IMG/VR virus record: IMGVR_UViG_3300027736_000153
Coordinates: 1 to 31,873 of that record
Strand: one strand, 5' to 3'
DNA length: 31,873 bases
From: a virus
A program made the position numbers and the translations under genes. The notes under the pieces were generated by a model. That model was not told the DNA's origin and made no database searches. It saw nothing but the letters and a program-made list of their open reading frames with translations. The stretch's first letter is position 1; each line of letters starts with the position of its first letter. Below are positions 13,193 through 23,929 of this stretch, piece by piece.

Positions 13193-13441
13193 TTAGAATG
13201 GGATGTCATCAATAATCTTAGGCATTTCATCTTCACCTTTTGCCTTAAAATTGCTTGCTTCTTTTACCTTACCTATTTGGCCAGAAAAAAACTTCCCATT
13301 CTTGCCATCTTTTAGCCAGGCACTTAGCCAATGCTCTCTGCCATCGACCATAATTGACCCTGTGTAATCTGGGTGCTTTTCTGTTTCCTTGCGAGTATTT
13401 TTAAACAAACTAAATTGCCCATCTTTCATTTCATAAGCCAT
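13193..13441 (-). CDS. Probable single-stranded-DNA-binding-like small protein
   Basis: 82 aa. Starts MAYEMKDGQFSLFKNTRKE, with central HPDYTGSI and EHWLSAWLKDGKNGKFFS strands. It ends DEMPKIIDDIPF, matching the acidic DD(I/L)PF tip by which bacterial SSB proteins recruit partners. It lies directly behind the exonuclease gene (TAATG overlap), where an ssDNA-binding partner of the ERF/exonuclease pair would be expected. The SSB-type role is inferred from the tip and the context, not from a recognised OB-fold alignment. Confidence 0.55.
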   Translation of the reverse strand: MAYEMKDGQFSLFKNTRKETEKHPDYTGSIMVDGREHWLSAWLKDGKNGKFFSGQIGKVKEASNFKAKGEDEMPKIIDDIPF

Positions 13442-14049
13442 TATTTTCTCTCTTTCAATTGGTTAACCATACCTTCAACTTCTGTTAAAAATTCTACTAC
13501 TTCTACTTCCATTGTGCCTATATATTTATCATCTCTTGGCACTCTTACAACAAACAACTGTAAATCCTCTGGCAGCCTTGGATCAAAAGATACAAAGTCG
13601 CACCACTTTCTACCAGTAACTGCCATCTGGCATTGCATCTGGCTTATATACTTTGCTGGTGCTTTGTTATCGGTTAGATACTCTATATGGGTAGCTGAGT
13701 TAGGACACTTGATCTCAATCATGCCATCATGCGCTAGGCCATCTGGGCTACAGCCAAACATCGCTATAGTTGGATGCTCAATAAACCCAACTTGCTCAAC
13801 CAGCACATCTTTTGCTATCTCATAGGCTATTCTTGCCATTGGCTCTGTGGCAGTACCCCACTCCATTGCAGCATTGGTAAAAGACTCGCTAGGCAGCCCA
13901 GTTAGCCTTTGGACTACCAACTCAGCCCTATAGTTCTTTCTGCTGGCTGATTCTCCGGTTTTAATCTTGGCCATAACATCTGAAACCCGACTAGCAGTTA
14001 CCTTGCCTAGCCTAAGTTGATGCCATTCTGGTGTCCCTTGCTCAATCAT
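13441..14049 (-). CDS. YqaJ / lambda-type 5'-3' exonuclease
   Basis: 202 aa. Conserved blocks: GTPEWHQLRLGKVTASR (5-21), MEWGTATEP (E63, 62-70), FGCSPDGL (D103) and MIEIKCP (E112, K114). These are the residues of the PD-(D/E)XK core of lambda exonuclease and YqaJ recombinases. The enzyme resects one strand of dsDNA ends to give 3' overhangs for the annealing protein encoded in the same operon. The start is coupled to the gene upstream by ATGA and the stop to the SSB-like gene by TAATG. Confidence 0.9.
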   Translation of the reverse strand: MIEQGTPEWHQLRLGKVTASRVSDVMAKIKTGESASRKNYRAELVVQRLTGLPSESFTNAAMEWGTATEPMARIAYEIAKDVLVEQVGFIEHPTIAMFGCSPDGLAHDGMIEIKCPNSATHIEYLTDNKAPAKYISQMQCQMAVTGRKWCDFVSFDPRLPEDLQLFVVRVPRDDKYIGTMEVEVVEFLTEVEGMVNQLKERK

Positions 14050-17176: not shown

Positions 17177-17857
17177 GTGGATGCTATTGTTAAAAGAATG
17201 ACAGAAGAAGAATATATAAAACAAGCAACAGAGTTTGCATTAGGCGAAACAAGGTTCTCTCTACAACCCTTTCCATGCTTAGATGACAACTCAGGCCATG
17301 GGTTCGACCAACACTACATTTATCATGTAGCTTGGGCATTAAAAAAGATAAGAGAAATAAACCCTAAAAGCCACACAGACATTAGCTCTAGCCTACATCT
17401 ATCTACTTGTGCAAGCGCCTTTTATCCTACTACTTACCTAGACTATAGAAAACCAGACCTCCAGTTAGAAAACCTAACAGTTGGCGAAATAGATTTAGCA
17501 ACACAATCTATAGAACCAGTAGAGTGCCTAAGTTGCTGCCATGTAGTCGAGCATATTGGGCTAGGTAGATATGGCGATAGGATAGACAACACCGGTGATC
17601 TAAAAGCCATAGAAAACCTAAAACTAAGCGCTGCAAGCCATTTACTATTTGTAGTGCCTGTAGGTATCCCAACTGTTATGTTCAATGCCCACAGAGTCTA
17701 TAGCCCTGTCTATATTAGAAACCTATTCTCAGAGTTTGATTGCGAGTTTTATCTTATTCCTAATACTAGGGATTATCCCTATATTGCGGAAATTGTAGAA
17801 CTTGATATACCATATGGATGCGGATGTTTCTATTTTAGAAGGAAGATAAATGTTTAA
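17177..17857 (+). CDS. DUF268-like protein (SAM-methyltransferase-like fold)
   Basis: 226 aa from GTG at 17177 (AGGTGA 10 nt upstream); an ATG at codon 8 has no ribosome site. The family block is CLSCCHVVEHIGLGRYGD (117-134), then ID...GDLKAIENL (136-148), LLFVVPVG (156-163) and FNAHRVYSP (169-177). DUF268 proteins resemble class I methyltransferases and are often found in surface-glycan loci, but no reaction is established and the SAM-binding GxGxG loop is not obvious here. It lies between the structured RNA and the replication gene (8-nt overlap). Its presence fits the glycan theme of the window. Confidence 0.7.
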   Translation: MDAIVKRMTEEEYIKQATEFALGETRFSLQPFPCLDDNSGHGFDQHYIYHVAWALKKIREINPKSHTDISSSLHLSTCASAFYPTTYLDYRKPDLQLENLTVGEIDLATQSIEPVECLSCCHVVEHIGLGRYGDRIDNTGDLKAIENLKLSAASHLLFVVPVGIPTVMFNAHRVYSPVYIRNLFSEFDCEFYLIPNTRDYPYIAEIVELDIPYGCGCFYFRRKINV

Positions 17858-18224
17858 TGAGTTTTGGAGTCTGTATCCTAAAAAGATGGCAAAGGGCGCA
17901 GCTAGAAAAGCATTTGAGCGACTGACAGAAGCAAACAAACAGTTGGCCATACAAGCACTACCAAACCATATTAAATATTGGAAGTCTACAAATACAGAGT
18001 TAATGTATACACCTCATGCTAGTAGCTGGCTTAATGGTGAAAGATGGGAAGATGAGTTGGTAATAGAAGATAAGAAAAAAGAAGTAGTTGGCTGGCATAA
18101 GACCGAGGCAGGAACAATGGCCAAGGGTAGAGAGATAAACTTTAACCCAGCACCAGGCGAATCAATGGATATGTATAGACAAAGATTACACAGAAGGATA
18201 CTAGAGCTTGAAGGACAAATGTGA
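17850..18224 (+). CDS. Replication protein O/DnaT-like C-terminal domain protein (probable helicase loader or organiser)
   Basis: 124 aa. FWSLYPKKMAKGAARKAFERL (5-25) and YTPHASSWLNGERWEDEL (53-70) are the conserved elements of the C-terminal domain found in phage replisome organisers and DnaT-like proteins. The usual N-terminal winged-helix origin-binding part is absent, so this is a short version. It probably recruits the host DnaB helicase. It overlaps the DUF268 gene by 8 nt (ATGTTTAA), and its stop overlaps a GTG that once started the methyltransferase (see 18221-18253). Confidence 0.65.
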   Translation: MFNEFWSLYPKKMAKGAARKAFERLTEANKQLAIQALPNHIKYWKSTNTELMYTPHASSWLNGERWEDELVIEDKKKEVVGWHKTEAGTMAKGREINFNPAPGESMDMYRQRLHRRILELEGQM

Positions 18225-18253
18225 ATGAGTTGGCTCTTTTCGCAGGCGCAAAT
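18221..18253 (+). pseudogene. Orphan 5' end of the methyltransferase gene (duplicated start)
   Basis: GTG at 18221, coupled to the previous stop (GTGA), codes MNELALFAGAN. ELALFAGA is exactly the motif I segment at residues 13-20 of the methyltransferase that resumes at 18621. The two 23-nt segments differ only at synonymous third or first codon bases. In the next frame this fragment reads MSWLFSQAQI and then a stop, while the second frame at 18616 begins MSWLISQA. The simplest reading is that an endonuclease gene was inserted here and split both frames. Confidence 0.7.
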
Positions 18254-18628
18254 ATGAAAACACATTGGAAAAGTTCTGTATATGCTAGAGAAAAAGCTAA
18301 AGCATGGAGATTATCTAATCCTGAAAAAGTTAAAGAATATCGCATAAAAAATCGCCAAAAAAATTATCACCAAGAGATTGTTCGCTAATATAAAATTAAT
18401 TTTGATTGGTTTGATAAGCAATTTGAATTACAAAAAGGATTGTGTATGACCTGCTCTAAAGAATTATTGGGAACAGATAAACAAAACAAGCCTCATATAA
18501 ACCATTGCCACACAACAGGAAAAGTAAGAGGAATTCTTTGCAACCGATGCAATACAGTTTTGGGTTTATGTTTAGATAACAAGGAACTATTTGTAAATTT
18601 AAAAGGGTATTTGGAATGTCATGGTTAA
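18254..18628 (+). pseudogene. Recombination endonuclease VII-like (homing-type) gene with in-frame stop
   Basis: ATG at 18254 opens MKTHWKSSVYAREKAKAWRL and a basic helix to codon 44. TAA at 18386-18388 (codon 45) interrupts; the same frame then continues without further stops to 18628. The downstream part has the endonuclease VII zinc/HNH core: GLCMTC, INHCHTTGKVRGILCNRC (catalytic His, second CxxC), NTVLGLCLDN. A single base change (AAA or CAA to TAA) explains the stop. It may be dead, read through, or an assembly or population variant; a restart at 18440/18446 would keep most of the nuclease core. Its end overlaps the methyltransferase start by 8 nt. Confidence 0.75.
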
Positions 18629-19488
18629 TAAGTCAGGCGATGATGAGGGATTACGGGAACTCGCCCTCTTTGCAGGGGCTGGTGGAGGAATACTTGGGGG
18701 ACATCTCCTTGGATGGAGAACAGTCTGTGCAGTCGAATGGGAAGCCTACCCAGCTAGCATACTTGTCGCCAGACAAAATGACAAAATACTCCCGCCTTTC
18801 CCGATTTGGGATGATGTTCAAACCTTTGACGGAAAACCATGGCAAGGAATTGTTGATGTTGTATCTGGAGGATTTCCATGCCAAGACATCAGCGCTGCTG
18901 GAAAGGGGGGGGGTATTACTGCAAGCCGAAGTTCAATGTGGAAACACATGGCGAGAATTATTGGCGAAGTTCGACCCAAATACTGCTTTGTGGAAAACAG
19001 CCCAATGCTCACTAATAGAGGACTTGGAGTTGTCCTTGGAGATTTGGCCGAGATGGGGTTCAATGCGGAATGGGGAGTGTTATCGGCAGCCGATGTTGGT
19101 GCAAAACATCTTAGAGAAAGAATCTGGATTGTGGGCTACTCCAAATTGCATGGACACATTGCCTCCATTGATAAGCAAGTCATATCAAGAAAGCCAAACA
19201 GGCCGAAGGGAAATATCAAGCAATTTGAGAGACCAAGTATTTCAAAGATTTCCAACTCCACAAGCATCGGACAACAGAGACAGGGGAAACATGAGCAATC
19301 CATCGATTCAGCGAAGAATTGCCAAGGGCAAACAAATTATGCTGAGTCAATCGGTAGACCAGAATTCTGGGCAATTGAACCCAATGTGGGTCGAGTGGCT
19401 AATGGGGTGGCCGCAAGGGTGGACAGACTTAAAGCCATTGGAAATGGACAAGTGCCTTTATGTGCAGCAACAGCCTGGGAATTGTTAA
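18616..19488 (+). CDS. Second long reading frame overlapping the methyltransferase (conserved phage protein of unknown function)
   Basis: 290 codons open in the +1 frame relative to the methyltransferase, over almost its whole length. It begins MSWLISQAMMRDYGNS and contains LEDFHAKTSAL, LWKTAQCSLIEDLE, WPRWGSMRNGE, SGLWATP, FPTPQASDNRDRG and, near 254-272, LNPMWVEWLMG and GWTDL. I recall phage proteins with these blocks, usually called hypothetical or methylase-associated. The PCQDIS motif of the enzyme is read here as FHAKTSA. A frame this long is unexpected by chance in AT-rich DNA, so dual coding is likely. Function unknown. Confidence 0.55.
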   Translation: MSWLISQAMMRDYGNSPSLQGLVEEYLGDISLDGEQSVQSNGKPTQLAYLSPDKMTKYSRLSRFGMMFKPLTENHGKELLMLYLEDFHAKTSALLERGGVLLQAEVQCGNTWRELLAKFDPNTALWKTAQCSLIEDLELSLEIWPRWGSMRNGECYRQPMLVQNILEKESGLWATPNCMDTLPPLISKSYQESQTGRREISSNLRDQVFQRFPTPQASDNRDRGNMSNPSIQRRIAKGKQIMLSQSVDQNSGQLNPMWVEWLMGWPQGWTDLKPLEMDKCLYVQQQPGNC

Positions 19489-19511
19489 AAGCTAGAGTAG
19501 ATGGACAATAG
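18621..19511 (+). CDS. dcm: DNA cytosine-C5 methyltransferase
   Basis: 296 aa. Motif I ALFAGAGGGILGG (15-27), motif IV GGFPCQDIS (83-91, catalytic Cys87), motif VI ENSP (125-128), motif VIII-like RERIWIVG (165-172) and motifs IX-X RVANGVAARVDRLKAIGNGQ near the C-terminus are all present in one frame, so the enzyme looks intact. It would methylate C5 of cytosine in a short site, probably protecting phage DNA from restriction. The variable region (about 173-250) should set specificity. The N-terminal MVNKSGDDEG is atypical and probably new after the upstream insertion. A G9 tract interrupts the region after motif IV. Confidence 0.9.
   Translation: MVNKSGDDEGLRELALFAGAGGGILGGHLLGWRTVCAVEWEAYPASILVARQNDKILPPFPIWDDVQTFDGKPWQGIVDVVSGGFPCQDISAAGKGGGITASRSSMWKHMARIIGEVRPKYCFVENSPMLTNRGLGVVLGDLAEMGFNAEWGVLSAADVGAKHLRERIWIVGYSKLHGHIASIDKQVISRKPNRPKGNIKQFERPSISKISNSTSIGQQRQGKHEQSIDSAKNCQGQTNYAESIGRPEFWAIEPNVGRVANGVAARVDRLKAIGNGQVPLCAATAWELLKARVDGQ
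18905..18913 (+). repeat. G9 homopolymer inside both overlapping frames
   Basis: Nine consecutive G in an AT-rich phage, directly after the PCQDIS motif (KGGGIT in the methyltransferase, RGGV in the other frame). Loss of one G would shift the methyltransferase N-terminal half into the overlapping frame. Candidate for slippage. Confidence 0.8.
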
Positions 19512-23036: not shown

Positions 23037-23189
23037 ATGAAAAATAGTCTTTATGGCAATATTCATGCCAAACAAAAAAGAATAGCTGCTGGTTCAGGCG
23101 AGAAGATGAACAAGGTTGGCAGCAAAGCAGCCCCATCTGCTAAAGACTTTAAACAAGCTGCAAAAACAGCAAAGCCAAAGAAAAAATGA
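23037..23189 (+). CDS. Small basic conserved phage protein (50 aa)
   Basis: Codes MKNSLYGNIHAKQKRIAAGS, GEKMNKVGSKAAPSAKDFKQ and a Lys-rich tail. The 'nIhaKqkRIaaGSGEkM' type is common upstream of phage packaging genes. Role unknown, possibly DNA-associated. Coupled to the glycosyltransferase by ATGA. Confidence 0.75.
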   Translation: MKNSLYGNIHAKQKRIAAGSGEKMNKVGSKAAPSAKDFKQAAKTAKPKKK

Positions 23190-23929
23190 GAATAGGGGTA
23201 ATTATCCCCTACCGAAATCGAGATGAGCATCTAAAACAGATGCTCCCTCATACTGTTAGTTTCTTTCGCAGAAATACAGAAATAGAACCCTTATTTGTAG
23301 TTGCAGAGCAGGCAGATGATTGCCCATTCAATCGAGGCGCACTAAACAACCATGCTTATGTAGCTATGGCTGGTATGGTAGATTATGTTTGTTTCCATGA
23401 TGTAGATTATTTGCCTATGTGGGCAGACTACACAGAGCCTAACTTGCCAAGTAGAATTATTTGGTTCGGACTAGATAACAGACCAGTTGGGCATGGCACA
23501 GACAATGTTATATCGGCACAAAAATATGGATTAGCCGCAGTAGCGGTAATGAAAAAGTGGCACTTTGAGTCAGCTAATGGATATTCTAATAATTATTGGG
23601 GCTGGGGTTATGAGGACACAGACCTAGCCAAGAGGCTTGAATCTGTCGGACTGCCACTAGGGTATAGGAATGGTACATTTATTGCCCTAGACCATGATTC
23701 TAATGGCTACACAGCCTCTGGAAATACAGAAGCAAACACAGATAATGGTAAGCGCTTTGATACTAGGGTTTACCCTGATGTAATGGATGGGCTTAGTAGT
23801 TTAGCTGGAACAGTAGTTAGCATAGAAAAACATATGGCTAAAGGGTTAGCCGAAGAAACAGCACCTCTCTTATGGTGCAAGTATGATTTTAAGGAAATGT
23901 ATGCCATTCAAAAGCAAAAACCAAGCTAG
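23186..23929 (+). CDS. GT7-type (beta-1,4-galactosyltransferase-like) glycosyltransferase
   Basis: 247 aa. Signature blocks of GT7: IPYRNRDEHL (7-16), FNRGALNN (48-55), FHDVDYLP (70-77, DxD metal site) and NYWGWGYEDTDLAKRL (136-151, acceptor and catalytic region). GT7 enzymes transfer galactose or GalNAc from a UDP-sugar. No signal or membrane segment is present, so it acts in the cytoplasm. Sitting among pre-packaging genes, it may modify virion proteins or a host glycan. Acceptor unknown. Its end overlaps the next small gene by 29 nt. Confidence 0.85.
   Translation: MRIGVIIPYRNRDEHLKQMLPHTVSFFRRNTEIEPLFVVAEQADDCPFNRGALNNHAYVAMAGMVDYVCFHDVDYLPMWADYTEPNLPSRIIWFGLDNRPVGHGTDNVISAQKYGLAAVAVMKKWHFESANGYSNNYWGWGYEDTDLAKRLESVGLPLGYRNGTFIALDHDSNGYTASGNTEANTDNGKRFDTRVYPDVMDGLSSLAGTVVSIEKHMAKGLAEETAPLLWCKYDFKEMYAIQKQKPS

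Follow-up and report, generated by a model that had tools for sequence, protein, structure and literature searches.

Two overlapping frames at a phage methyltransferase locus

We analyzed a window of 31,873 nucleotides, the stretch of viral DNA that comprises positions 1-31,873 of IMG/VR virus record IMGVR_UViG_3300027736_000153. A family scan of the ORFs between 15212 and 26102 places replication, recombination, exonuclease, and terminase genes around a C5-methyltransferase locus, with no restriction-enzyme family seen among the neighboring ORFs scanned. The same phage genome carries a DUF268 protein (17177-17857) and a group 7 galactosyltransferase-like protein (23186-23929), and a 202-residue ORF on the minus strand (13441-14049) is among the window's other long ORFs. 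At the methyltransferase locus, a sequence-only reading had proposed two frames offset by +1, and both are open over the proposed spans of 18621-19511 (frame A) and 18616-19488 (frame B). Each begins with ATG, and they encode proteins of 296 and 290 residues, respectively (Table 1). The same reading judged the longest non-coding frame elsewhere in the window to be of about 180 codons.

Table 1. Features of the methyltransferase locus in window coordinates, with the evidence for each.
Feature	Position	Strand	Evidence
Frame A: catalytic subunit of the C5-methyltransferase (motifs I-VIII and X present, motif IX not recognizable)	18621..19511	+	PF00145, E 3.5e-32; AlphaFold; HhaI, Z 23
Frame B (+1 relative to A): proposed recognition subunit, 290 aa	18616..19488	+	phrog_1008, E 1.9e-27; conserved +1 overlap
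Motifs I-VIII: frame A under most of the constraint, with partial B constraint at about 18942-19091	18660..19139	+	Substitution fractions; sliding window
VIII-IX interval (proposed target-recognition region): constraint in B, A released	19140..19371	+	Substitution fractions; sliding window; T-P motifs of B with free wobble
Motif IX-like block of B, QLNPMWVEWLMGWPQGWTDL, B residues 253-272	19372..19431	+	Frozen A third positions (up to 2.4 bits); register alignment; motif order in relatives
Motif X and C-terminus of A (RLKAIGNGQVP...), constraint back in A after about 19440	19425..19511	+	Substitution fractions; Asn AAT/AAC 77/77; confident helix
Paired start codons ATGTCATG: B start 18616, A start 18621	18616..18623	+	Second start form, also in L014, L032, L079, and others
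Remnant of the common paired start, GTGAATGAGTTGGCTCTTTTCGCAGGCGC	18221..18249	+	5' end as in most relatives; 395-base spacing as in L014 and L343
Endonuclease VII-like (HNH-type) gene with a single in-frame stop, overlapping both starts at its end	18250..18628	+	PF02945, E 3.1e-14 for 18440-18628

The start codons of the two frames occur in two arrangements. In the common form, NTGAATG (NTGAATGAG), the A start lies four bases before the B start; 171 loci match this form, and 153 of them have a purine-rich stretch upstream. In the second form, ATGTCATGG, which is the one found in the window, B comes first. The window and loci L014 and L343 also carry an Endonuclease VII-like gene flanked by a remnant of the usual start and by the present start. 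This gene is open in L014 and interrupted by one in-frame stop in the window, and it looks like a homing-endonuclease insertion. Comparing the N-terminus of B in L002 (MSWLFSQALV) and L014 (MSWLISKALM), we found seven residues in common (MSWLxSxAL), five of which use different codons (AGT/TCA, CTC/TTA, TCG/AGC, GCG/GCC, and CTG/TTA). The N-terminal peptides of A differ between these two loci. Preservation of the B peptide despite these codon changes, in loci where the A peptide is not preserved, supports a translated B N-terminus.

Frame A matches PF00145 with 112.5 bits (cut-off 22), and the residues of its PC, EN, and RxR motifs (P86 and C87, E125 and N126, R165 and R167) are invariant in 66 relatives. 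An AlphaFold model of A is confident in an HhaI-like catalytic domain, mostly above 90 over residues 12-175, and in the motif X helix; in the interval between them confidence is low, below 50 at residues 201-237 and 253-269. The Z score of the model against HhaI is 23 over 195 residues. Against TIGR00675, A scores 89.8, below the cut-off of 100.65. Because of this low score, and because the interval is disordered in the model and unconstrained in A (see below), we conclude that A does not carry on its own chain the recognition domain and motif IX usual for these enzymes.

Conservation of frame B

Frame B is a real conserved protein. The related phage proteins suspected for it exist: a tblastn search returned 82 matching phage records, every one below 60% identity, and B matches phrog_1008, a family labeled “DNA methyltransferase”. 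In ten phage records, from ten host genera, the A and B frames are open in all ten; the annotation mostly gives one ORF at the locus, with Paenibacillus phage Leyra giving both. B overlaps a methyltransferase in the +1 frame in every one of the 80 viral loci initially retrieved with it. In a set of 296 loci, mostly collected through B and with counts inflated by related sequences, we found 289 full +1 overlaps, three partial overlaps, and two loci in which A's motif X lies in B's ORF; the remaining two lack B and are contig-edge fragments. None of the 294 B-containing loci has B without A. Loci found through A alone do not sample methyltransferases at large, being related to the window and to a mycobacteriophage methyltransferase. 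Among them, B is present in +1 overlap in 100 of 102, the exceptions being one frameshift and one edge fragment. Three loci (L116, L228, and L276) have a single stop in A between motifs VIII and X with B intact; these are either real three-part genes or sequencing errors.

We compared both kinds of methyltransferase in 14 bacterial genomes, each picked because it has a B locus. Their canonical single-chain C5-methyltransferases contain 5-34 stops in the corresponding frame, and the best B match there is weak at about 31 bits, whereas in their A-type methyltransferases the +1 frame is nearly unbroken. Stops at random places, which the sequence-only reading had named as evidence against a second gene, are therefore a property of the canonical enzymes and absent from the A-type ones. 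When the window's methyltransferase was resampled with synonymous codons, about 16 stops were expected in the second frame, which was open in none of 400 trials. For 99 loci less than 60% identical, mostly found through B, the mean probability of an open frame by the same procedure is 0.003, and all 99 are observed to be open. The same DNA is shared by two conserved proteins, as the idea of an overprinted gene pair had proposed. Searches of Pfam, NCBIfam, and PADLOC returned nothing significant for B, and single-sequence and profile searches against PDB sequences gave insignificant matches only.

Selection on the two frames

With the +1 offset, the third codon position of A is the second position of B. 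We compared A codon usage across 155 methyltransferases less than 70% identical. Over B residues 255-272 the third positions of A are nearly fixed (CCC in 144, GGT in 111 of 111, GCT in 125 of 125, and GGG in 153 of 154), and at the T-P motifs of B in the recognition interval the wobble position of B is free. Synonymous codon choice in A stays close to background both at the catalytic PCQDIS (Cys TGC 115/TGT 40; Gln CAG 85/CAA 67) and at the GNG of motif X (Asn AAT/AAC 77/77). The suggestion that PCQDIS is also a conserved block in the second frame fails on this measure, and the B peptide read there, FHAKTSA, is largely forced by the methyltransferase residues. A similar suggestion for the C-terminal RVDRLKAIGNG segment stands in part: GWTDL/RVDRL is constrained in B, with frozen third positions, but the adjoining KAIGNG is not.

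We measured selection along the locus as raw fractions of substitutions between close pairs at the three codon positions of A (A1/A2/A3), taken without a formal overlapping-gene model. Over motifs I-VIII these fractions are 0.28/0.16/0.56. Over the VIII-IX interval they are 0.757/0.142/0.100, corresponding to 76, 14, and 10% at the third, first, and second positions of B, and come from 51 pairs with shared ancestry, so that they describe a pattern and are not a test statistic. The motif IX block gives 0.55/0.23/0.22, and motif X gives 0.25/0.12/0.63. In a sliding window, the switches fall near 19122-19150 and 19425-19450, with partial constraint on B at 18942-19091. On these substitution patterns, B is under purifying selection in the VIII-IX interval and A is not. 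The patterns further show selection changing frame twice, from A to B and back to A, at the borders between motif VIII and the target-recognition domain (TRD) and between motifs IX and X. As judged from sequence comparison, the two frames are selected in complementary regions, and A lacks a small domain of its own.

Frame B as the proposed recognition half of a split enzyme

The near-invariant block LNPxWVEWLMGxPxGWT of B aligns unguided, and in register, to motif IX of canonical methyltransferases. The profile match is weak (E 0.18 with full profiles and 0.021 with the core), and none of 60 column permutations was as good. AlphaFold models B alone poorly, with a pLDDT of 57 and the best values near the C-terminus. 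In loci L142 and L145, A stops after motif VIII and the ORF of B continues past the IX-like block to include motif X. Four actinophage pairs (L430, L431, L432, and L436) have a second ORF, again in the +1 frame, where PTP repeats are found together with the IX-like block and motif X. A IX-like block followed by X in one frame is the normal motif order, and it strengthens an assignment of motif IX to B that is weak taken alone. The division of the enzyme in these six loci is AquI-like and may be an intermediate form.

Other long +1 frames were seen in our set. On the minus strand of L306 (1182-1976), a divergent methyltransferase without motif IX has an open +1 frame that reads IRWLSGSERLKMMGFASDW, a textbook-looking motif IX; this may be an independent second instance of the arrangement. 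The L306 pair had no matches when searched as DNA and as protein against E. coli genomes, plasmids, and phages. The single-chain methyltransferases of L325 (+1 frame) and L433 (1154-1576) have their own motif IX and also long open +1 frames, that of L325 containing PPRYCLSPKACAGILRRAAKRGKTLPPPLARALAAV. Such a frame may represent a further overlapping gene, or else a shadow frame.

We propose, with a probability of roughly 84%, that a single C5-cytosine methyltransferase is encoded at the locus as two polypeptides, each from one of the overlapping frames, with A as the catalytic and B as the recognition half. A would form the large catalytic domain from motifs I-VIII and the motif X helix, with a poorly conserved linker between VIII and X that is presumably there because frame B uses this DNA. 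B would supply the small domain, made up of the variable region for target recognition and of a segment resembling motif IX that packs onto the catalytic domain; in completing an HhaI-like small domain, it would place QLNPMWVEWLMGWP at the motif IX position. Since the starts of A and B are 4-5 bases apart, the subunits are probably made together. From the sequence patterns we infer that B is translated and that A and B form a heterodimer active in methylating phage DNA. The orphan, phage-borne setting suggests that this methylation would most likely serve escape from host restriction.

A different way to join the two frames would be programmed ribosomal frameshifting, yielding one polypeptide that reads motifs I-VIII in A, moves to B for recognition and motif IX, and returns to A for motif X. 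The constrained segments do follow one another as A, B, A, the motif order of a single-chain enzyme, and a single shift would suffice for the form seen in L142, L145, and the actinophages. The form in the window would need two shifts, however, and the open frame of B reaches back to a start codon a few bases away from that of A, with the paired starts conserved in the loci of the common form. Frameshifting would also not require that MSWLxSxAL be kept with different codons, and B is partly constrained upstream of the switch. We consider this reading very improbable.

It is, in our judgment, highly improbable that B is an independent protein, such as an anti-restriction factor, an inhibitor, or a regulator, that merely overprints the methyltransferase. 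In favor of such a protein, B is conserved and poorly modeled by AlphaFold, and its N-terminal part, over the catalytic motifs, has some constraint of its own. But B was never found without A in the loci collected, each frame is constrained where the other is not, the recognition domain is missing from A, and in other phages a B-like ORF continues into motif X. Of the roles first suggested for the second product, that of a specificity partner gains support from purifying selection on B in the VIII-IX interval where A is released, and those of an inhibitor or an independent anti-restriction protein are not supported, with B filling the part missing from A and accompanied by it in all 294 loci. 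Least credible is a shadow frame, open and conserved only through conservation of the methyltransferase frame: A largely dictates FHAKTSA and parts of WPRWGSMRNGE, and canonical and divergent methyltransferases give B-profile matches of 30-38 bits in that frame, but true B frames score about 200-360 bits, canonical enzymes are riddled with stops there, and we rejected this reading on the frozen synonymous positions of A in the B block and on third positions of A that are slowest in the recognition interval. B is most likely, on this evidence from sequence and predicted structure, the recognition half of a split C5-methyltransferase and not an unrelated overprinted gene.

In M.EcoHK31I, too, the small subunit is reportedly encoded in an alternative frame within the gene for the large subunit. 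M.EcoHK31I (YGGCCR) is a natural two-polypeptide C5-methyltransferase with motifs I-VIII, X, and a predicted TRD on the large chain and motif IX on the smaller (Lee, Kam and Shaw 1995, as described in PMC3404938). The window's A likewise has motifs I-VIII and X and no recognizable IX. In contrast to M.EcoHK31I, whose predicted TRD is on the large subunit, the constraint between VIII and IX is here in the second frame, and the system is phage-borne, with no restriction-enzyme family among the neighbors scanned. Because of the different TRD placement, we do not assign the window locus to the M.EcoHK31I type, although it would work like it. In M.AquI (CYCGRG), also made of two polypeptides, motifs IX-X are on the second chain with a continued recognition region (PMC3404938). 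The recognition region and a motif IX-like block would likewise be on the second polypeptide here, and L142, L145, and the actinophage pairs match the I-VIII/IX-X division; the window differs in having motif X in frame A and two ORFs that overlap almost completely. Fragments of artificially split M.HhaI and M.SssI can reassemble (PMC3439449, PMC3404938), but these are engineered one-frame fragments without a two-frame coding overlap. The phrog_1008 family, matched by B and by its divergent relatives, carries the label of a methyltransferase only and is silent on the overlapping second frame. In the literature searched, with most subscription papers beyond reach, we found no description of phage-wide overlapping or frame-interleaved methyltransferase subunits.

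The products of overlapping genes are commonly assumed to be unrelated. A and B instead seem to be complementary halves of a single enzyme, an idea that can be tested directly with the substitution map. We lean toward the broader view that these loci form an extensive and ancient class of frame-interleaved C5-methyltransferases in phages and prophages, whose coding constraint changes frame twice within 900 bases and whose specificity lies in the overprinted frame, as a case of gene fission by overprinting. Hundreds of phages share the A/B arrangement, and public records usually annotate one frame. “DNA methyltransferase” entries of this kind may miss the half that decides the target site; if so, methylome predictions or cloning from one-frame entries would fail.
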